The notes beneath the pieces are model-generated. The model saw nothing but the letters and a program-made list of their open reading frames with translations. It had not been told where the DNA came from and made no database searches. 64,000 bases of DNA from Dechloromonas aromatica (nom. nud.) (GTDB lineage: Bacteria; Pseudomonadota; Gammaproteobacteria; Burkholderiales; Rhodocyclaceae). Below, piece after piece: positions 55,023 through 63,976 of this stretch. Position 1 is the first letter of the stretch. Every line of letters starts with the position of its first letter. The position numbers and the translations under genes are program-made. The stretch is taken from the NCBI GenBank assembly GCA_017848965.1, contig JAFIHA010000055.1:31983-95982 (forward strand), given 5' to 3'.

Positions 55023-57338
55023 TTACGCCCGGCTCTGGATTTCCTCGATGTAGCCGAGCATGCCGGTCTGGATGTTGCCGGCGTTGCCTTCGTCGGTGTC
55101 GATGTGCATGGCCAGCCGGAAAGCCGGGTTAACGCGCACCACGACGTCGCCGAAGATCAACTGGCGCTCGCCTTCGACGCGGACGCGGACGACGGTGTTG
55201 TCGCGCACCCGGAAGCGGATCGCGTCATCCGGCGACATGTGGATGTGGCGTTGCGCGCAGATCACGCCGCGTTCGATCTGGCTGCTGCCGTAGGGGCCTT
55301 CGAGCGTCAGCCCGGGGGTGCCGGCGAGGTCGCCCGACTGGCGGATCGGCGGCTGGACGCCGAGCTTGAACTGCTCGGTCATCGCGATCTCGACCTGGGT
55401 TTCCTTGCGCGTCGGGCCGAGCACGCGGACGTTGGCGATGCGCCCCTTGGGTCCGACCAGATGCACCTTTTCCTCGCAGGCGTACTGGCCGGGCTGCGAC
55501 AGTTCGTGCATCGGTGTCAGCTGGTGGCCGGGGCCGAACAGCGCCTCGACGTCGGCTTGCGCCAGGTGCACGTGGTGGGCCGAGATTTCGACCGGGATCG
55601 GCGCCTCTTCGGCCTGCGCTTCCAGCAGCAGTTCGTTACGTTCGATGGCGCGCAGGGTTTCCCAGGCGACCAGGCGTTCGTCGTCGTTGGCGACGACGAG
55701 GATCTGCACCGGCGAATCGTCGGCGGAAATGACCGCGTAGGAATCGAACTTGCCGAGATGGCGGTTCTTCTCCTCGTCGAGCTTGATGCCCATGTAGCCG
55801 AGGCCCTGGCAGGCCAGGCTGCGCACCGTGGCGCTGGTTTCGCCGATGTCGCCGGTGAAGGCGAGGACGTCGATGCCGCCCATCGCCGCCGCATAGGCGC
55901 CGATGTTCTTGCGCACCTGGTAGCAGAAGGCCTTGTGCGCGAGCAGGGCGCGGTGGTGGCCGTCGGCGGCGGCGGCCTCGATCTCGTGGATGTCGTTGGA
56001 AATGCCGGAGATGCCCTTCAGACCGCTGTCGCAGTTGATCAGCGTGGACAACTGGGCCGGCGACATCTGGTGCTGTTCCATCAGGTGGATCATCACCGCC
56101 GGGTCGATGCTGCCCGAGCGGCTGGGCATGATCAGGCCGTCGGTCGGCGTCATGCCCATCGTCGTGTCGACCGAGCGGCCGTGATCGATGGCGCACAGCG
56201 AGGCGCCGATGCCGAGGTGGCAGGAGACGATTTCCAGCTCGCCGAGCGGGCGCTGCAGGACTTCCGCCGCCTTCAGCGAGACGTAGCGGTGCGAGGTGCC
56301 GTGGAAGCCGTAGCGGCGGATGCCGTTCTGCTTGTAGAGCTCGTAGGGCAGGCCGTAGAGGTAGGCGTAGGGGGCCAGCGTCTGGTGGAAGGCGGTGTCG
56401 AAGACGGCAACCTGCGGCACGTTCGGGAACTGCTTGAGGGCGACGCGGATGCCGGCGACGTTGACCGGGTTGTGCAGCGGCGCGAAGACGGCGAGTTCCT
56501 CGATGTCGGCGATCACCGCCGGGGTGATCACCGCCGAGCTGGAGAAGCGGTTGCCGCCATGGACGACGCGGTGGCCGATGGCGACGACGTCTTCCGGGTG
56601 GAAGGTGAAGGCCTTGCCGAGGCGGGCGGTGGCTTCGCTCATCACCTTGAACAGGTCGGACAGCTTGAACGGCTCGTGTTCGAGCGTCTGCCGCTGCGGC
56701 CCGACCATGACCGTGATCTGGGCGTGCTGCTGGTCGGCGTTGTCGATGATGCCGTGGATGTCGGCGCCGCTTTCCTCGGTGTCGTAGATGCCGAAGTGGA
56801 TCTGGCTGATGCCGACGTTGAGGGCGACGACCTTGCCCGGTTTGCGGGTGGTCAGCGACAGCAGGTCGCCGGCACCGGCCTTGGCCTTGCCCTGGCTGTC
56901 GGCGAGTTCGCCGACGCTGATCGCCCGCGTCCGTTCGGCGAGCAGTCGCGACAGGTAGGCGACCGCCTTCGGATTGACCAGGATGTGCGAGGCGAAGACT
57001 TCCTGCGGCACCATCAGCACGAAACAGCGGTTGCCGGCGATCACGTCGGCGGCGATGCGGTCGCCGGTGAGCAGGGAGAGCACGCCGAAGACGTCGCCCG
57101 GGCCGAGCTGGGCGATGACCGTGCGGGTACCGGTGTTGTCGGCGTTGGAAATCTCGGCGTGGCCGCTGATCATGATGCCGAAATGGCGCGTTTCATCGCC
57201 GGTTTCGAGCATCGCCTCGTTGCCCTCGAAGGTGGCAAGCCGGGATTTGATGACGATTTCCTCGACCTTGTCGGCCGGGAAGCTGGCGAACAGGGGCACC
57301 TGTTCGAGGAAGAAGCGTTTCAGGTCGATTTCGCTCAT
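55023..57338 (-). CDS. Fusion of cyclic-nucleotide-binding-like domain, acetate/propionate kinase and PduL-type phosphotransacylase
   Basis: A 771-residue protein with three parts. Residues 1-145 resemble a CRP-type nucleotide-binding domain (GDVFGVLSLLTGDR at 81-94) but lack the usual Glu and Arg cAMP contacts. Residues 168-565 are an acetate kinase: GHRVVHGG with R257, D314 in VFDTAFH, GFHGTSH (H346, H350), CHLG with H374, R407 in SRSGSIDP, and E500 in TGDIGE. Several phosphate-contact positions differ from family usage. Residues 580-765 are a PduL phosphotransacylase with the metal-site motifs HVH (589-591), RHIH (698-700) and MHIDTDE (H745). The chain could convert acyl-CoA to acyl phosphate and then acid plus ATP, or the reverse. 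No microcompartment shell genes are nearby. The start has GGTGGGATC before it. Confidence 0.9.
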   Translation of the reverse strand: MSEIDLKRFFLEQVPLFASFPADKVEEIVIKSRLATFEGNEAMLETGDETRHFGIMISGHAEISNADNTGTRTVIAQLGPGDVFGVLSLLTGDRIAADVIAGNRCFVLMVPQEVFASHILVNPKAVAYLSRLLAERTRAISVGELADSQGKAKAGAGDLLSLTTRKPGKVVALNVGISQIHFGIYDTEESGADIHGIIDNADQQHAQITVMVGPQRQTLEHEPFKLSDLFKVMSEATARLGKAFTFHPEDVVAIGHRVVHGGNRFSSSAVITPAVIADIEELAVFAPLHNPVNVAGIRVALKQFPNVPQVAVFDTAFHQTLAPYAYLYGLPYELYKQNGIRRYGFHGTSHRYVSLKAAEVLQRPLGELEIVSCHLGIGASLCAIDHGRSVDTTMGMTPTDGLIMPSRSGSIDPAVMIHLMEQHQMSPAQLSTLINCDSGLKGISGISNDIHEIEAAAADGHHRALLAHKAFCYQVRKNIGAYAAAMGGIDVLAFTGDIGETSATVRSLACQGLGYMGIKLDEEKNRHLGKFDSYAVISADDSPVQILVVANDDERLVAWETLRAIERNELLLEAQAEEAPIPVEISAHHVHLAQADVEALFGPGHQLTPMHELSQPGQYACEEKVHLVGPKGRIANVRVLGPTRKETQVEIAMTEQFKLGVQPPIRQSGDLAGTPGLTLEGPYGSSQIERGVICAQRHIHMSPDDAIRFRVRDNTVVRVRVEGERQLIFGDVVVRVNPAFRLAMHIDTDEGNAGNIQTGMLGYIEEIQSRA

Positions 57339-57367: not shown

Positions 57368-57428
57368 GTGGGCGAAGACTACCATTGTGTTGCGGTGCAG
57401 CATAGAGGGGTTTTCACAGGTTTTACCG

Positions 57429-57455: not shown

Positions 57456-58409
57456 TCAATTCACCCCGGATCGCTTGATCAGCGACTGCAGCTCGCCCAC
57501 CATGCCGCGCCGGAAGGCGAGCACGCAGAGCACGAAGATGACGCCCATGATCACCGTCACCCAGGAGCCGACCGAATCGGCGAGTTGAGTTTGCAGCGAG
57601 ACGATGGTGGCGGCGCCGACGATCGGCCCGAGGATGGTGCCCAGGCCGCCGAGCAGGGTCATCAGCACCACTTCGCCGGAAGCGTGCCAATGCACGTCGG
57701 TCAGCGAGGCGAGCTGGAACACCAGGGTCTTGGTCGCCCCGGCCGTGCCGGCCAGCGCCGCCGAGATGGTGAAGGCGATCAGCTTGAATTTGGTGACGTC
57801 GTAACCGAGCGAGATGGCACGCGGCTCGTTCTCGCGGATCGCCTTGAGGATCTGGCCGAAAGGCGAATGGATGGTGCGGTAGATGACGAAGAAGCCGCAG
57901 CAGAAGATGGCATACACCAGGTAGTACATGGCGATGTTGTCGGAAAGATCGATGACGCCGAGCAGGTGGCCACGCGGCACGCCCTGCAGGCCGTCCTCGC
58001 CGCCGGTTTCCTTGATCTGGACGCAGAGGAAGAAAACCATCTGGGCCAGGGCCAGGGTGATCATCGCGAAGTAGATGCCGGTGCGCTTGATCGCCAGCCA
58101 GCCGAACAGCCAGCCAAGCAGTCCGGCGGCGACGGTACCGGCGAGGATGCCGAGCTCCGGCGTCAGGCCGATGTCGCGCACCACCATGCCGCAGACGTAG
58201 CCGGCGGTGCCGAGAAAGGCGGCATGACCGAAGGAGAGCAGGCCGACGAAGCCGAGCAGCAGGTTGAAGGCGCAGGCGAACAGCGCGTAGCAGAGGATTT
58301 TCATCAGGAAGGTCGGGTACACCGCGTAGGGGGCGACCAGGCCGATGGCGAAGAGGACGCCCAGCAGCAGCGGCATTTTCGATTCGGGGAAGGCGGCGGG
58401 CGCATTCAT
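57456..58409 (-). CDS. livM: Branched-chain amino acid ABC transporter permease LivM
   Basis: A 317-residue permease with about nine helices. The family segments LLLGFVGLLSFGHAAFLGTAG (about 49-69), FAMITLALAQMVFFL and the EAA-like loop IRENEPRAISLGYDVTKFKL (about 192-211) are present. It forms the inner-membrane channel with LivH. It is the last gene of the livGFKHM-type operon, 19 bases after livH, and is followed by a hairpin. Confidence 0.93.
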   Translation of the reverse strand: MNAPAAFPESKMPLLLGVLFAIGLVAPYAVYPTFLMKILCYALFACAFNLLLGFVGLLSFGHAAFLGTAGYVCGMVVRDIGLTPELGILAGTVAAGLLGWLFGWLAIKRTGIYFAMITLALAQMVFFLCVQIKETGGEDGLQGVPRGHLLGVIDLSDNIAMYYLVYAIFCCGFFVIYRTIHSPFGQILKAIRENEPRAISLGYDVTKFKLIAFTISAALAGTAGATKTLVFQLASLTDVHWHASGEVVLMTLLGGLGTILGPIVGAATIVSLQTQLADSVGSWVTVIMGVIFVLCVLAFRRGMVGELQSLIKRSGVN

Positions 58410-58428
58410 GTGCTTTTCCTTTGACGGC

Positions 58429-59310
58429 TCAGGTCTTGCCGAACAGTCCGGCCGGGCGCACCAGCAGGACGATGACCATGATGACGAAGACGATGACGCT
58501 GGACGCTTCCGGGTAGAACACCTTGGTCAGACCCTCGATCAGGCCGAGGCCGAGGCCGGTGAGGATCGAGCCCATGATCGAGCCCATGCCGCCGATGACG
58601 ACGACGGCGAAGACGACGATGATCAGGTTGGAGCCCATCAGCGGATTGACCTGGAAAACCGGGGCGGCGAGCACGCCGGCAAAGGCGGCGAGGGCCACGC
58701 CGTAGCCGTAGGTGAAGGTGATGAGCAGTGGCACGTTGATGCCCAGGGCCTGCACCATCTGCGAGTTCTCGGTGCCGGCACGCAGATAGGCGCCGAGCTT
58801 GGTGCGCTCGATCATGTACCAGGTGCCGAAGCAGACGGTGAGCGAGGCGACAATGATCCAGGCGCGGTAGATGGGGAGGAACATGAAGCCGAGGTTGATG
58901 CCGCCGGACAGCAGTTCGGGAACGTCGTAGCTCTCGCCGGAGATGCCGTACTGGTCGCGGAAGACGCCTTCGATGATGAGCGCCAGGCCGAAGGTGAGGA
59001 GCAGGCCGTAGAGGTGGTCGAGCTTGTACAGCCGGCGCAGCATCAGGCGTTCGATGACGACGCCGACGGCGCCGACGATCAGCGGCGCGGCGATCAGCGC
59101 CACCCAGTAGTTGATGCCGAAGCGGGTCAGAGCGATCCAGGCGACGAAGGCGCCCATCATGTACTGCGCGCCGTGGCAGAAGTTGATGATGTTGAGCAGG
59201 CCGAAGATGATCGCCAGCCCGAGGCTGAGGATGGCGTAGAACGAGCCGTTGATCAGCCCGACCAGCAGCTGGCTGCCGAGCAGGGCGGTGGGGATGCCGA
59301 AGATTTCCAT
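58429..59310 (-). CDS. livH: Branched-chain amino acid ABC transporter permease LivH
   Basis: A 293-residue permease with about eight helices. It starts with LLGSQLLVGLINGSFYAILS and carries LGLAIIFGLLNIINFCHGAQYMMGA (about 30-54) and the loop GTENSQMVQALGINV typical of LivH. It partners LivM. It lies 58 bases after the binding-protein gene in the same operon. Confidence 0.93.
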   Translation of the reverse strand: MEIFGIPTALLGSQLLVGLINGSFYAILSLGLAIIFGLLNIINFCHGAQYMMGAFVAWIALTRFGINYWVALIAAPLIVGAVGVVIERLMLRRLYKLDHLYGLLLTFGLALIIEGVFRDQYGISGESYDVPELLSGGINLGFMFLPIYRAWIIVASLTVCFGTWYMIERTKLGAYLRAGTENSQMVQALGINVPLLITFTYGYGVALAAFAGVLAAPVFQVNPLMGSNLIIVVFAVVVIGGMGSIMGSILTGLGLGLIEGLTKVFYPEASSVIVFVIMVIVLLVRPAGLFGKT

Positions 59311-59368
59311 GGGGCGCTCCAGGCCCGTTGCCGACCGGCGCCGGCAACGGGCATTGCGATGGCTGCTC

Positions 59369-60583
59369 TTATTTCTTGATCAGCGGGCAACGCGACAGCG
59401 CCAGCGGCTGGAAGGCCTCGGCCGCCGGGATCGTCGCCTTGATCGTGTAGTAATCCCACGGGTACTTGGAGTCGGCCGGTTTCTTGACCTGCACCAGGTA
59501 CATGTCGTGCACCATGCGGCCGTCGTCGCGGATCTGCCCGTTCTTGGCGAAGAAGTCGTTGATCGGCGTCTTCTTCATCATTGCCATCACCTTGCTGGTG
59601 TCGTCGCTGCCCGCCGCCTTGACCGCCTTCAGATAGTGATAGATCGACGAATACTGGCCGGCCTGGACCATGGTCGGCATCTTCTTCTGCTTGTCGAAGA
59701 AGCGCTTCGACCAGGCGCGGGTTTCTTCATTGCGGTCCCAGTAGAAGCCGGTGGTCAGGAACATGCCCTGGGTCGGCTTGAGACCGAGCGAATGGACGTC
59801 GGTGATGAACATCAGGAGGCCGGCCAGCGACTGCGTGGGCGTGATGCCGAATTCGGCCGCTTGCTTGATCGCGTTGGTGGTGTCGGCGCCGGCGTTGGCC
59901 AGGCCGATGACCTGGGCGCCCGAGGCCTGTGCCTTGAGCAGGAAGGACGAGAAATCGGAACCGGGGAAGGGGTGGCGCACCGAGCCCAGTACCTTGCCGC
60001 CGTTGGCGGTGACCACGGCCGACGAATCCTTTTCCAGGGAATGACCGAAGGCATAGTCGGCGGTCAGGAAGAACCAGTTCTTGCCGCCCTGCTGGGTCAC
60101 CGCCTTGGCCGTGCCGTTGGCCAGCGCGTAGGTATCGTAGGTGTAGTGCACGGTGATGTCGTTGCACTGTTCGTTGGTGATCGGCGTCGAAGCCGGGCCG
60201 TTCATGATGGCGATGCGGTCCTTCTCCTTGGCGACCTTCATCACCGCCAGCGCGGTCGAGGTGGTGACCAGCTCGGTGACGGTGTCGACGTTTTCGCGTT
60301 CGATCCACTCGCGCGCCTTGTTGGAGGCGATGTCGGCCTTGTTCTGGTGGTCGGCGGTGACTACCTCGATCTTGAAAGTGGGCTTTTCCTTGGCGATGAA
60401 ATCGTCGATGGCCATGCGGGTGGCCAGGATGGCGCCGGAACCGGCCAGGTCCGAATAGGTACCGGACAAGTCGGTGAGTACGCCGATCTTGACCGAGCCG
60501 CCCGATATCTGGGCCGAAGCTCCGGCGGACAGGGTGGCCAGCGCGGCGGCGCAGGTGGTAATGGCAAGTTGCTTGGTTTTCAT
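59369..60583 (-). CDS. livK: ABC transporter substrate-binding protein, LivK/HAAT family
   Basis: A 404-residue periplasmic type I binding protein. The signal peptide is MKTKQLAITTCAAALATLSAGASA. The mature part begins SGGSVKIGVLTDLSGTYSDLAG, the HAAT-family opening, and has PASTPITNEQC and WFFLTADYAFGHSLE. Length is near the 380-400 usual for family members binding amino acids, amides or aromatic acids, so the ligand may not be leucine. AGGAGGAG lies eight bases before the ATG. The binding protein is probably the most highly made operon product. Confidence 0.92.
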   Translation of the reverse strand: MKTKQLAITTCAAALATLSAGASAQISGGSVKIGVLTDLSGTYSDLAGSGAILATRMAIDDFIAKEKPTFKIEVVTADHQNKADIASNKAREWIERENVDTVTELVTTSTALAVMKVAKEKDRIAIMNGPASTPITNEQCNDITVHYTYDTYALANGTAKAVTQQGGKNWFFLTADYAFGHSLEKDSSAVVTANGGKVLGSVRHPFPGSDFSSFLLKAQASGAQVIGLANAGADTTNAIKQAAEFGITPTQSLAGLLMFITDVHSLGLKPTQGMFLTTGFYWDRNEETRAWSKRFFDKQKKMPTMVQAGQYSSIYHYLKAVKAAGSDDTSKVMAMMKKTPINDFFAKNGQIRDDGRMVHDMYLVQVKKPADSKYPWDYYTIKATIPAAEAFQPLALSRCPLIKK

Positions 60584-60611
60584 GGGTGTCTCCTCCTGGT
60601 GGGCGGCTCGG

Positions 60612-61334
60612 CTAGACGCCGAGTGTCTGGTGCAGCCAGTCCATCTTCCCGGGGAGTTCCTCGTGGCTGATGGTGGCGATGATCTCTCCGTGTTCGAGCA
60701 CGTAATGGCGGTCGGCCAGCGGCGCCGCGAAACGGAAGTTCTGTTCGACAAGGACGATGGTGAAGCCGCGTCGCTTCAGTTCGACGATCACCTCGCCCAG
60801 CTTCTTGACGATGACCGGGGCCAGGCCTTCGGTGATCTCGTCGAGCAGCAGCAGCTTGGCGCCGGTGCGCAGGATGCGCGCCATGGCCAGCATCTGCTGC
60901 TCGCCGCCGGACAGCTTGCCGCCCGGGCTGGCGCGGCGCTCCTCGAGGTTGGGGAACATCTGGTACAGCTCGTCGATCGACATGCCGCCACTCGAGATGA
61001 TGGGCGCCAGGGTCAGGTTCTCCTCGGTACTGAGCGAGGTGAAGATGGCGCGTTCCTCCGGACAGTAGCCGACGCCGTGGTGGGCGATCTTGTGGGTGGG
61101 TTCGTGGATCACCTCGTTGCCGCTGATCATGATCGAGCCGGTGCGACGGCCGACCAGGCCCATGATCGACTTCAGGGTGGTGGTCCGCCCCGAGCCGTTG
61201 CGGCCGAGCAGGGTCACGCATTCGCCCTTGGCGACGCTGAGATCGAGACCGTGCAGGATGTGCGATTCGCCGTAGAAGGCGTGCAGGTCGCTGAGGCGGA
61301 GGTACTCGGGGTGCGGTTTGAAGGCGCTGGTCAT
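60612..61334 (-). CDS. livF: ABC transporter ATP-binding protein LivF with Walker A lysine replaced
   Basis: A 240-residue ATPase subunit. The signature LSGGEQQMLAMAR (about 140-152) and Walker B LLLLDEITEGL are normal. The Walker A reads GRNGSGRTT, so arginine 50 stands where lysine is usual; the codon is CGG. I recall similar Arg forms among betaproteobacterial LivF relatives, so it may be a subfamily trait rather than a defect. It lies 13 bases after livG and is paired with the normal LivG. Confidence 0.92.
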   Translation of the reverse strand: MTSAFKPHPEYLRLSDLHAFYGESHILHGLDLSVAKGECVTLLGRNGSGRTTTLKSIMGLVGRRTGSIMISGNEVIHEPTHKIAHHGVGYCPEERAIFTSLSTEENLTLAPIISSGGMSIDELYQMFPNLEERRASPGGKLSGGEQQMLAMARILRTGAKLLLLDEITEGLAPVIVKKLGEVIVELKRRGFTIVLVEQNFRFAAPLADRHYVLEHGEIIATISHEELPGKMDWLHQTLGV

Positions 61335-61347
61335 GGTCGTCGTCCGC

Positions 61348-62115
61348 TCAATGGTGCGCGTCGTTCATGTTGTCGGAGCCGACATAGGCTTCGAGTACCT
61401 GCGGATTTTTCGAAACCTCCTCGTAACTGCCCTCGGCCAGCACGCTGCCGCGGGTGAGCACGGTGATGCGGTGGCACAGGTGGGCGACCACCGACAGGTT
61501 GTGCTCGACCATCAGGATGGTGCGGTTGGCCGATACCTTGCGGATCAGTTCGACCACCCGCTCGATGTCCTCGTGCCCCATGCCCTGCGTCGGTTCGTCG
61601 AGCAGCATCATCTCCGGCTCGAGCGCCAGGGTCGTGGCGATTTCCAGCGCCCGTTTGCGGCCGTAGGGCATTTCTGAGGTCATGGTGGCGGCGAAGCTGC
61701 CCAGGTCCACCGCTTCGAGCAGCGCCATCGCCTCGTCGTTCAGACGGTTCAATGTCTTGGCCGACTTCCAGAAGTGGAACTCGGTGCCCAGCTTGCGCTG
61801 CAGGCCGATGCGCACATTTTCCAGCACCGTCAGGTGCGGGAAGGTGGCGGAAATCTGGAAGGAACGGATAAAGCCCCGGCGGGCGGTGAGCGCTGGCGGC
61901 TCGTGGGTGATGTCCTGGCCGTTGAAGTGGATGCTGCCGGCGGTCGGCGGCAGGAACTTGGTGACCAGGTTGAAGACGGTCGTCTTGCCGGCGCCATTGG
62001 GGCCGATCAGGGCGTGGATGCTGCCGCGCTCGACTTTCAGATTGACGTCGGCAACGGCGGTGAAGCCCTTGAATTCCTTGGTCAGGCCACGGGTTTCAAG
62101 AATCACGTCGCTCAT
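61348..62115 (-). CDS. livG: ABC transporter ATP-binding protein LivG
   Basis: A 255-residue ATPase subunit with intact Walker A GPNGAGKTT (about 38-46), Walker B MMLLDEPTQGM (about 173-183) and H-loop VEHNLSVV. The signature region is MPYGRKRALEIATTL, a variant of LSYGxxR. The Liv-type insert (ENVRIGLQRKLGTEFHF) is present. It is the first transporter gene of the operon. Its own ribosome site is weak, and its ATG overlaps the stop of a short upstream ORF. Confidence 0.94.
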   Translation of the reverse strand: MSDVILETRGLTKEFKGFTAVADVNLKVERGSIHALIGPNGAGKTTVFNLVTKFLPPTAGSIHFNGQDITHEPPALTARRGFIRSFQISATFPHLTVLENVRIGLQRKLGTEFHFWKSAKTLNRLNDEAMALLEAVDLGSFAATMTSEMPYGRKRALEIATTLALEPEMMLLDEPTQGMGHEDIERVVELIRKVSANRTILMVEHNLSVVAHLCHRITVLTRGSVLAEGSYEEVSKNPQVLEAYVGSDNMNDAHH

Positions 62116-62192
62116 CGTGTACCCCGCTGACCGGCGCCGTAAGGCGAGCGAGAAGGGCGGTGCAGTGTATCGGTGTCGGGCAGGACGACCAT
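62112..62192 (-). CDS. Possible 26-codon leader ORF coupled to livG
   Basis: An ATG at 62192 lies six bases after a strong AGGAG (62199-62203) and opens 26 codons beginning M-V-V-L-P-D. Its TGA overlaps the livG ATG (ATGA). The frame differs from livG, so it is not an N-terminal extension. The good ribosome site belongs to this ORF rather than to livG, which suggests that translation of livG depends on it. The peptide resembles no family I know. It could be a regulatory leader; three of the first four residues are Met/Val/Val with Leu next. Chance occurrence is possible. Confidence 0.45.
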   Translation of the reverse strand: MVVLPDTDTLHRPSRSPYGAGQRGTR

Positions 62193-62291
62193 CGTTGTCT
62201 CCTGGTGATTATGGATACCGCAACTGTTTTATTGATAAGGAATTATTGCATGCTCGGAATGGGCTGGGGACGGGAAATTGGCTGGGGTTTA

Positions 62292-62324
62292 CCCTTAAGG
62301 GCGGTGCATCGCACCAGGCCTGGT
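62292..62324. repeat. Cluster of small palindromes between livG and the CoA-transferase
   Basis: Three dyads are packed in 33 bases: CCCTTAAGGG (62292-62301), GGTGC/GCACC (62303-62315) and ACCAGGCCTGGT (62313-62324). They lie 100-132 bases upstream of the short ORF before livG and just downstream of the CoA-transferase terminator, so they may be operators of the liv operon. Confidence 0.4.
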
Positions 62325-62332
62325 ACGTCATG

Positions 62333-62357
62333 AAAAAAGGCCGCGATTGCGGCCTTT
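62333..62357 (-). terminator. Rho-independent terminator of the CoA-transferase gene
   Basis: On the minus strand AAAGGCCGC pairs with GCGGCCTTT around AATC, and the T-run continues for three more bases. It lies about 48 bases after the TAA stop. Confidence 0.85.
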
Positions 62358-62369
62358 GGGCGGTGCTTC

Positions 62370-62396
62370 GCGCGCCAGGTCTGCCACCTGGCGCGC
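62370..62396 (-). other. Long hairpin after the CoA-transferase stop
   Basis: An 11-base perfect stem (GCGCGCCAGGT and ACCTGGCGCGC) with a five-base loop lies between the stop codon (62405-62407) and the T-tailed terminator. It may protect the mRNA 3' end or act as a second terminator. Confidence 0.6.
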
Positions 62397-62404
62397 GCGG
62401 GGGC

Positions 62405-63976
62405 TTACTTCGCCCAGGCGTCGGCTTGCACCGTCGCGTCGTCGCGCCAGGCGGCGCGAGCGGTCTGGTTGGCGACCCAGTTGGGCAGGAAGGTGTAGGC
62501 CTCATCGAGCAGGTGCGGCGTGTGGCGGCCCGGCGAGTAGCGCAGCGCACGATCATAGTATTCGCGCAGCGCCGGCCGGAAGTTCGGGTGGGCGCACTTC
62601 TCGATGACCACCTTGGCGCGCTGCTTGGGGGCCAGGCCGCGCAGGTCGGCCAGACCCTGTTCGGTGACGATGACCTGGACGTCGTGCTCGGTATGGTCGA
62701 CGTGCGAGACCATCGGCACGATGCAGGAAACGCTGCCGCCCTTGGCCGACGACGGGGTCATGAAGATCGAGATGAAGGCGTTGCGGGCGAAGTCGCCGGA
62801 GCCGCCGATGCCGTTCATGATCGAGGTGCCCATGATGTGGGTCGAGTTCACGTTGCCGTAGATGTCGGCTTCGATCAGCCCGTTCATCGCGATGACGCCG
62901 AGGCGACGGATGACTTCCGGGTGGTTGGAGATTTCCTGCGGGCGCAGGATGATCGAGTCCTTGAAGCGCGGCAGGTCGGCGTTGAGTTCTTCCAGCGCCG
63001 CCGGGCTGAGCGAGAACGAGGTGGCCGAGGCGCAGGTCAGCTTGCCGCACTTGATCAGGTCGAGCATGCCGTCCTGCAGCACTTCGGTGTAGGCGGTCAG
63101 GTTTTCGAACGGCCCGTCCTGCAGGCCGGCCATCACCGCGTTGGCGACGTTGCCGACGCCGGATTGCAGCGGCAGCAGGTTGGCCGGCAGGCGACCCTTC
63201 TTCACTTCGTGCTGCAGGAAATCGAGGATGTGGCCGGCGATCAGCTTGGAGTTGGCATCCGGCGGGGTGAACGGCGAGTTGCGGTCGGCCTTGTTGGTTT
63301 CGACGACGGCGATCACCTTGTTGAGGTCGATCTTGTAGTAAGGGTCGCCGATCCGGTCGTCGGTGCGGACGATGGGAATCGGCTTGCGGTGCGGCGGCAG
63401 CGCGGTGCCGTAGTAGATGTCGTGCATGCCTTCGAGGGCCGGGTTCTGCCAGGCATTCACTTCGAGGATGATCTTGTCGGCCTGGTCGAGCCAGGTCTTG
63501 TTGTTGCCGACCGACGATGATGGAATCAGCCGCCCGTCTTCCAGGATGCCGGCGACTTCGACGACGGCGACATCGAGCTTGCCGAGGAAGCCGCCCCAGA
63601 CGAACTGGGCGACGTGTGACAGGTGGATGTCGATGTATTCCATCTCGCCGGCGTTGATCCGCTTGCGGCAGGTCGGGTCGGACTGGTAGGGCAGGCGCAT
63701 CTCGACGCCGTCGACCATGGCCAGCGCGCCGTCGAGTTCGGGCGCGGTCGAGGCGCCGGTCCACACGCCGATCTTGAATTTCTTGCCATGCAGGTTGGCA
63801 TCCATGATGCGCTTGGCCAGCGTGGACGGCACCGCCTTCGGATAGCCGGCGCCGGTAAAGCCGCTCATGCCGACGTTGACGCCGGAAGGAATCAGGGCGG
63901 CGGCCTCTTCGGCGGACATGATCTTGCCGCGCAGGTGGGGACAAAGGATGCGGGAGGAAGCGTTGTTTGTCTGCAT
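62405..63976 (-). CDS. Acetyl-CoA hydrolase / succinyl-CoA:acyl CoA-transferase family protein
   Basis: A 523-residue class I CoA-transferase of the acetyl-CoA hydrolase/AarC/ScpC/Cat1 group. The catalytic glutamate is probably E298 in TAYTEVLQDGM. The CoA-binding loops QSGVGNVANAV (about 271-281) and the oxyanion loop NVGMSGFTGAGYP (about 34-46) are present, as is GTSIMNGIGGSGDFARNAF. Likely reactions are CoA exchange between succinate and acetate or propionate. Start ATG 63976 lacks a clear ribosome site; the 24 bases before the window end show no other gene. It is separate from the liv operon but may act on the same acyl-CoA pool. Confidence 0.9.
   Translation of the reverse strand: MQTNNASSRILCPHLRGKIMSAEEAAALIPSGVNVGMSGFTGAGYPKAVPSTLAKRIMDANLHGKKFKIGVWTGASTAPELDGALAMVDGVEMRLPYQSDPTCRKRINAGEMEYIDIHLSHVAQFVWGGFLGKLDVAVVEVAGILEDGRLIPSSSVGNNKTWLDQADKIILEVNAWQNPALEGMHDIYYGTALPPHRKPIPIVRTDDRIGDPYYKIDLNKVIAVVETNKADRNSPFTPPDANSKLIAGHILDFLQHEVKKGRLPANLLPLQSGVGNVANAVMAGLQDGPFENLTAYTEVLQDGMLDLIKCGKLTCASATSFSLSPAALEELNADLPRFKDSIILRPQEISNHPEVIRRLGVIAMNGLIEADIYGNVNSTHIMGTSIMNGIGGSGDFARNAFISIFMTPSSAKGGSVSCIVPMVSHVDHTEHDVQVIVTEQGLADLRGLAPKQRAKVVIEKCAHPNFRPALREYYDRALRYSPGRHTPHLLDEAYTFLPNWVANQTARAAWRDDATVQADAWAK

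Follow-up and report, generated by a model that had tools for sequence, protein, structure and literature searches.

A PduL phosphotransacylase fused to a degenerate acetate kinase domain behind a PhaR-type palindrome in Rhodocyclales and near kin

Introduction

What does an acetate kinase (Ack) domain do when it is enclosed, in a single chain, between a cyclic-nucleotide-binding (CNB)-like domain and a PduL-type phosphotransacylase? The question is raised by one gene in a stretch of 64,000 nucleotides of Dechloromonas aromatica DNA (contig JAFIHA010000055.1, positions 31,983 to 95,982), hereafter the window. The initial annotation, made from the letters of the window, took the encoded protein for a bifunctional enzyme with a ligand-controlled switch at its N-terminus. 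After following the fusion through related genomes, we favor another answer with moderate confidence: the protein is probably a regulated PduL phosphotransacylase linked to polyhydroxybutyrate (PHB), whose Ack domain would be a pseudokinase incapable of using nucleoside triphosphates (NTPs) and whose gene is probably switched by the regulator PhaR.

Two-part Ack-PduL fusions have already been published (Erbilgin et al. 2016, PMC4784909). These proteins likewise hold a PF06130 region and an acetate kinase in one chain, and they were interpreted as stand-ins for Pta in variant Pta-Ack pathways, whereas the protein described here has an added CNB domain and has lost its NTP-site residues. Our literature search found no paper that describes the three-part CNB-Ack-PduL form or the loss of the Ack residues.

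Results

The predicted single, uninterrupted CNB-Ack-PduL frame was borne out by the open reading frame and by the order of the Pfam and NCBIfam matches (Table 1). All three Pfam models exceed their gathering scores: cNMP_binding at aa 36-116 (E 2.2e-14; PF00027, 53.6 bits with a cut-off of 27.5), Acetate_kinase at aa 169-558 (E 6.7e-128) and PTAC/PduL at aa 582-756 (E 5.2e-78). The Ack domain additionally scores 414.9 bits against NCBIfam TIGR00016 (ackA; cut-off 293.4) and the PduL domain 267 bits against PRK15070 (cut-off 209). A sequencing error joining separate genes is ruled out, as 103 distinct full-length copies were read. An AlphaFold model of the fusion was poor (mean predicted local distance difference test score 60.3) and was not used.

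The Ack domain departs from a working acetate kinase at its nucleotide site. Using the residue numbers of M. thermophila AckA, we mapped positions through alignments to solved AckA structures onto 118 rows (records from two collections), 91 of them distinct; 12 further distinct copies, 64-70% identical, bring the total to 103, and the record L173 repeats L086/L151. In the window copy, the motifs read NVGISQIHF, HLGIGAS, MPSRSG, FTGDIGET and NDDE, an alteration that the initial annotation overlooked. S10, S12, K14, N211, G239, G331, T382 and E384 are replaced in 91/91 distinct copies and in 12/12 of the further ones, which makes 103/103 overall. The replacements among the 91 copies are I/L/V/M for S10, Q/R for S12, H/R for K14, I/V/A for N211, P/A/S for G239, D/E/H for G331, N/S for T382 and D/N/H for E384; the 12 further copies have D, E, A, Q or R at G331 and I, V, L, Q or S at N211. 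Most of the eight residues are tied to the nucleotide (NTP/metal) site. In M. thermophila AckA, N7, S10, S11, S12 and K14 have been named as important for activity, N211 contacts the beta-phosphate, and single changes at N211, G239 or G331 lowered activity 6- to 200-fold (PMC4390882). E384 is probably equivalent to a Salmonella residue listed as a metal ligand (PMC3475010).

The acyl side of the site has been kept. Residues of the acetate pocket and of phosphoryl transfer (R91, V93, H123, D148, F179, H180, P232 and R241) are present in 91/91 copies, N7 in 88/91 and L122 in 87/91, while the R285 position holds H in 80 and R in 7 of the distinct copies. The fusion shares with canonical AckA (M. 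thermophila, PDB 1g99/1tuu) the homology of the whole domain (1g99 over aa 169-568), the acetate pocket and the transfer residues, and differs from it in the replaced residues of the PHOSPHATE1, PHOSPHATE2, LOOP3, ADENOSINE and C-terminal motifs. A homologue from another class (locus L112) is canonical at all eight positions and has deviations of its own (E334 to Q, N335 to G, V93 to T). Moreover, 10 Ack-PduL rows and 26 stand-alone Ack rows have canonical PHOSPHATE1, PHOSPHATE2 and ADENOSINE motifs wherever these are covered (L099 is without its N-terminal part, and the ADENOSINE pattern was not found in L100).

Table 1. Features of the fusion gene and its promoter, in window coordinates
Feature	Residues (aa)	Coordinates	Strand	Details
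CNB-Ack-PduL fusion gene	1-771	55023..57338	-	771-aa ATG frame, no internal stop; Pfam and NCBIfam profiles
CNB-like domain	1-145	56904..57338	-	Pfam PF00027 and residue tallies
CNB phosphate-binding cassette	84-100	inside CNB domain		window copy without canonical Arg and without Glu
Ack domain	168-565	55644..56837	-	PF00871, alignments to solved AckA, residue tallies
Altered PHOSPHATE1 motif	173-184	56787..56822	-	LNVGISQIHFGI
Altered PHOSPHATE2 motif	373-380	56199..56222	-	CHLGIGAS; N211 to I
Altered LOOP3	404-413	56100..56129	-	MPSRSGSIDP; G239 to P, R241 kept
Altered ADENOSINE motif	494-502	55833..55859	-	FTGDIGETS; G331 to D
Altered C-terminal motif	551-554	55677..55688	-	NDDE; T382 to N, E384 to D
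PduL phosphotransacylase domain	580-765	55044..55601	-	PF06130, PRK15070, alignment to 5cuo
PhaR-type palindrome		57387..57403	-	ATGCTGCACCGCAACAC; 2 mismatches to YTKNTGCRNYGCANMAR; 49-65 nt before start codon

A retained transfer side could also serve a different phosphoryl donor. The Ack domain might use pyrophosphate, phosphate or polyphosphate, or might hydrolyze acyl phosphate, and would then link acetate and acetyl-CoA without ATP. Besides the kept residues, the replacement of G331 by Asp, Glu or His agrees with this idea: the sole known pyrophosphate-dependent AckA, that of Entamoeba (PDB 4h0o), has likewise replaced its Gly331 equivalent, and certain bacterial AckA proteins with Asp at this position have an unknown donor (PMC5517563). 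However, the PHOSPHATE2 loop of the Entamoeba type is one residue longer (PMC5517563), and this extension is absent from the fusion, which has also lost the beta-phosphate-contacting N211 and the PHOSPHATE1 residues S10, S12 and K14. We consider such an NTP-independent role unlikely. The fusion-bearing lineage is known for acetate-to-PHB and polyphosphate metabolism. A narrower version of the idea, in which PhaR would control an NTP-independent acetate activation, with the Ack domain making acetyl phosphate from pyrophosphate or polyphosphate and PduL turning it into acetyl-CoA for PHB, seems to us quite improbable.

The genomes that carry the fusion also encode an ordinary acetate kinase. An Ack match elsewhere was found in 20/22 fusion-bearing genomes of the same genus, the two exceptions being 74 and 76% complete, and a separate canonical AckA was confirmed in 20/20 fusion-bearing genomes checked (one each; L002 in the genome of the window, and L179-L197). 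HLGNG, MGTR and TNEE are present in all 20 of these proteins, NAGSSS in 19 (L181 is cut), and the ADENOSINE pattern in 19/20, L197 giving no match to the pattern used. A MaoC-PTA_PTB gene directly precedes the separate ackA in 19/20 cases, L181 sitting at a contig edge; in L179 and L183 the sequenced stretch ends within this gene. Two more long frames in the genome of the window match PF01515. With the eight residues lost in each of the 103 copies read and a separate AckA in every genome checked, the ATP-forming acetate kinase proposed in the initial annotation is not supported.

In the PduL domain, nine mapped residues are intact in 91/91 copies: the six zinc ligands of both sites (H48, H50 and E109; H157, H159 and H204, by alignment to 5cuo), R103, S127 and the CoA-contacting N211, whose roles were described previously (PMC4784909). 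The HVH, RHIH and HIDTDE motifs of the metal sites, already noticed in the initial annotation, are present, with their ligand positions kept in 91/91 copies. The zinc ligands and the equivalents of Arg103, Ser127 and Asn211 are shared with Rhodopseudomonas palustris PduL (PDB 5cuo), from which the domain differs in being the C-terminal part of a 771-aa chain. As for a microcompartment context, which is customary for PduL but not a requirement, the profiled neighbors in the window are not shell proteins; the genome was not searched for shell genes.

The CNB domain is atypical. A canonical phosphate-binding cassette of this fold is marked by a Glu and an Arg. The Arg is absent from 103/103 copies, and the Glu is kept in 7/91 plus 12/12 of the further copies (19/103), so that a canonical cyclic-nucleotide switch is unlikely. 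These tallies also bear on whether the protein could be a working, ATP-dependent Ack-PduL enzyme with channeling that is switched by nucleotides at the CNB domain. The domain order and the Ack profile score above its cut-off would fit such an enzyme; channeling has been suggested for Ack-PduL fusions (PMC4784909); and L112 keeps the eight Ack residues, as CNB-less Ack-PduL fusions keep canonical motifs where covered. Nevertheless, the window-type copies have without exception lost both the eight Ack residues and the CNB Arg, and channeling in them would need a working kinase. We regard this explanation as very improbable.

The promoter suggests a link between the fusion and PhaR. A conserved element lies approximately 60-70 nt before the start codon, and a 2025 study deduced YTKNTGCRNYGCANMAR as the palindrome of R. 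eutropha PhaR (PMC12849132). Within 150 nt upstream of 77 copies (the window and 76 loci), the best match to this palindrome has no mismatch in 56 copies, one in 11, two in 8, three in 1 and four in 1. None of 1540 mononucleotide shuffles (20 per promoter) fell below 2 mismatches; for the 907 other genes of the loci, the best site has 0 mismatches in 7, 1 in 7 and 2 in 25, several of the best belonging to divergent neighbors that share the gap or to the tandem fusion copy of L086. When the site is required to begin 55-80 nt upstream of the start codon, 55 perfect matches remain, along with 11 at one and 8 at two mismatches (74/77). Columns aligned on these 74 sites carry 1.45 bits, compared with 0.16 in the upstream and 0.48 in the downstream flank, a value that is inflated because only sequences with no more than 2 mismatches were admitted. 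Where protein identity is below 90% (34 copies), the palindrome is perfect in 23. In the 12 further copies and the two tandem genes of L173, a search of 200 nt (L168 has only ~100 nt of upstream DNA) gave 6 perfect sites, 5 with one, 1 with two and 2 with four mismatches; those within 2 mismatches lie at varied positions from -31 to -101.

The genome of the window encodes PhaR (152.7 bits, cut-off 109.45). Its four phasin genes form three units, all of which have a site with 0 or 1 mismatch; the phasin identity was confirmed for three of those genes. A first scan of this genome with TTGCTGCNNNGCARCA, allowing 1 mismatch, gave 73 matches and 13 in the reversed control; because many matches lay inside genes, we relied on the promoter tests instead. 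A sigma-70 scan of the region returned nothing, and Anr/FNR and sigma-54 patterns were found upstream of 0/77 copies. Elsewhere in the same genome, PhaR-type sites also precede an acyl-CoA synthetase gene (L261 1819) and a fumarate reductase cytochrome b gene (L262 1500-1581). The ordinary MaoC-Pta/AckA operons have a site within 1 mismatch in 5 (L182, L184, L185, L196 and L197) of the 16 cases with enough upstream DNA, 15 of which come from fusion-bearing genomes other than that of the window, and none within that limit in the other 11.

Is the Ack domain, together with the CNB domain, a leftover structure that holds PduL in place and senses nothing? Some of the NTP positions vary freely (D/E/H/R/Q/A at G331), as lost constraint predicts. 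However, the acyl-side residues are invariant, S12 is replaced by Q or R only and K14 by H or R only in the 91 copies, and the domain appears, by a rough estimate, to be under purifying selection. That estimate comes from the Nei-Gojobori method applied to 2876 pairs of 77 copies (pairs with an overall dS of 0.2-1.2), in which median dN divided by median dS gives 0.26 for the CNB domain, 0.75 for the linker, 0.22 for Ack and 0.12 for PduL. The mean identity of the 117 other rows to the window copy is 75.5% for CNB, 39% for the linker, 83.4% for Ack and 88.7% for PduL. A mere leftover is, in our judgment, distinctly unlikely.

In phylogenies built from 45 Ack domains and from 24 PduL domains, the 14 sampled Rhodocyclales-type rows fall in one clade with L112 as sister (support 100/100 in Ack and 100/99 in PduL). 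The stem of the 14 measures 0.62 in Ack and 0.18 in PduL, while the branch of L112 measures 0.38 and 0.31, respectively. The long Ack stem compared with that of PduL indicates that the Ack domain went through a burst of change before the group spread and has been held since.

The distribution searches, which used the window protein as query, confined the fusion largely to one group. A full-length fusion is present in 22/25 genomes of the same genus, that of the window included, and in 0/16 genomes from other families of the order (41 genomes searched in all). In a sample of the family, 43/219 genomes match at E <= 1e-100, 42 of them over the full length, in 16/68 genera, and one (G888) through an Ack gene and a PduL gene that lie side by side; in a sample of the order, 9/399 match, with eight full-length proteins, all in one family, and one matching by Ack only (G1215). 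The class sample yielded 35/369 matches at E <= 1e-85, of which only that in the genome of the window is full length, eight are Ack-PduL matches without CNB (L093-L100; contig ends truncate L095, L099 and L100, which leaves the N-terminus of L099 uncovered) and the rest are Ack only by query range. In the phylum sample, 76/398 genomes match; the genome of the window and G678 (locus L112, 55%) have the full length, two have Ack-PduL, and the others have Ack only by query range. The host of G678/L112 is probably alphaproteobacterial, and the L112 protein, used as query, found only G678 itself among 240 genomes of its class (E <= 1e-110). PF06130 was detected in 1/150 phylum genomes, which is the genome of the window. 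The suspicion that the three-part design is unusual thus holds outside one group.

A search of a contig collection found relatives encoded in 303/331 stretches, the best 80 of which gave 79 loci with proteins 70-90% identical (three of them, L045, L074 and L088, are truncated at or close to the end of a contig). Named hosts include Azonexus, Dechloromonas, Zoogloea, Azoarcus, Parazoarcus, Thauera, Rhodocyclus, Propionivibrio and others, with many metagenome-assembled genomes. Azonexaceae and Zoogloeaceae belong to Rhodocyclales, and L090 (Ca. Nitricoxidireducens, Sterolibacteriaceae) to Nitrosomonadales by NCBI; because of the latter we call the group Rhodocyclales and near kin. Several variant arrangements were met. 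Rhodocyclus purpureus has a tandem pair of fusion genes (L173 2708-7501, the L086 record), each ~74% identical to the window copy, with a good PhaR-type site before only one of them. One genome of the same family (L172 2277-4079) has separate, adjacent canonical Ack and PduL genes and no fusion. At L103 (1-2697), an acetate kinase ends a frame whose ~500 preceding residues match no Pfam model and may be a mere open frame. Two CNB-less Ack-PduL fusions with canonical Ack motifs (L113 1-3384 and L094 3-3036) adjoin a gene for phosphoketolase (XFP), an enzyme that makes acetyl phosphate.

Discussion

Overall, the three-part design, the intact PduL site and the rarity outside one group have stood from the initial interpretation; an ATP-forming acetate kinase is not supported, and a canonical cyclic-nucleotide switch is unlikely. 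We therefore provide a putative mechanism for the fusion. The PduL domain would interconvert acyl-CoA plus phosphate and acyl phosphate plus CoA. The Ack domain would be a pseudokinase that retains the acetate/acyl-phosphate half of its site and has lost the NTP half; because the acyl-side pocket has been kept, it most likely senses acetate or acetyl phosphate, or else serves as a scaffold, and together with the atypical CNB domain it may tune PduL. ATP formation or use would be left to the separate canonical AckA. PhaR probably controls the gene, such that the protein would be produced once PHB granules have titrated PhaR away from the DNA, and the acetyl-CoA/acetyl-phosphate node would thereby be tied to the PHB cycle. 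The flux may run either toward acetyl-CoA overflow or toward acetate feeding into PHB.

The proposed control by PhaR can be compared with known regulons. As in the PhaR regulon of Ralstonia, a palindromic operator consensus is found here at phasin genes. Loss of phaR in Bradyrhizobium strongly induces pta and two ackA genes (PMC10888616), which resembles the link proposed for the fusion. In contrast, no fusion of a degenerate Ack domain with PduL was seen as a member in the available text on the Ralstonia and Bradyrhizobium regulons.

Several observations weigh against the reading that we favor. On the side of the enzyme, the single changes made in M. thermophila AckA lowered activity and did not abolish it (PMC4390882), the role of T382 falls outside the residues covered by the available text of PMC4390882, PMC5517563 and PMC3475010, and the invariant R91, D148, H180 and R241 could support other phosphoryl chemistry. 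On the side of control, L052 (3 mismatches), L086 (4) and L090 (7) exceed 2 mismatches at the usual position, the palindrome of the window itself has 2 mismatches, a level reached by 39/907 other genes, and L112 has no PhaR-type site (4 mismatches). Additionally, the sites lack specificity: across the loci read, gap sites within 1 mismatch precede 29 distinct called genes, phasins included, most of them without an evident role in PHB metabolism, and acetate kinase and phosphotransacetylase have 0 occurrences in the available text of a paper on Sinorhizobium PhaR (PMC12542648). The neighboring genes, described below, lend no support either.

A domain can have lost its ATP-site residues across an entire lineage and still score well enough to be annotated as an "acetate kinase"; therefore, models of metabolism in these bacteria may put ATP formation in the wrong place. 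These bacteria are common PHB formers, and the connection that the fusion may make between PHB storage and the acetyl-CoA/acetyl-phosphate node can be put to the test. Moreover, it may represent a natural case in which an ASKHA-type kinase has shed its NTP half and kept its substrate half under selection.

Gene neighborhood

A function based on an operon with the nearby transporter and CoA-transferase genes was considered and rejected, as the neighbors are not conserved across the 79 loci (flanks of up to 9 kb, shorter at contig ends). The CoA-transferase gene upstream was found only in L015 among these loci, and the transporter genes have only distant matches (29-43% identity), in 9/79 loci. 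No adjacent gene family exceeds 8/76 upstream or 10/74 downstream, and for this reason the neighbors were left out of the functional assignment; the commonest family anywhere in the flanks occurs in 27/80 sources. In the window, the genes concerned lie upstream of the fusion (57456-63976): five encode an ABC transporter of the urea/branched-chain amino acid type, and another encodes an acetyl-CoA hydrolase/transferase. Downstream are a gene for a PhnD-like binding protein and one for a hybrid histidine kinase.

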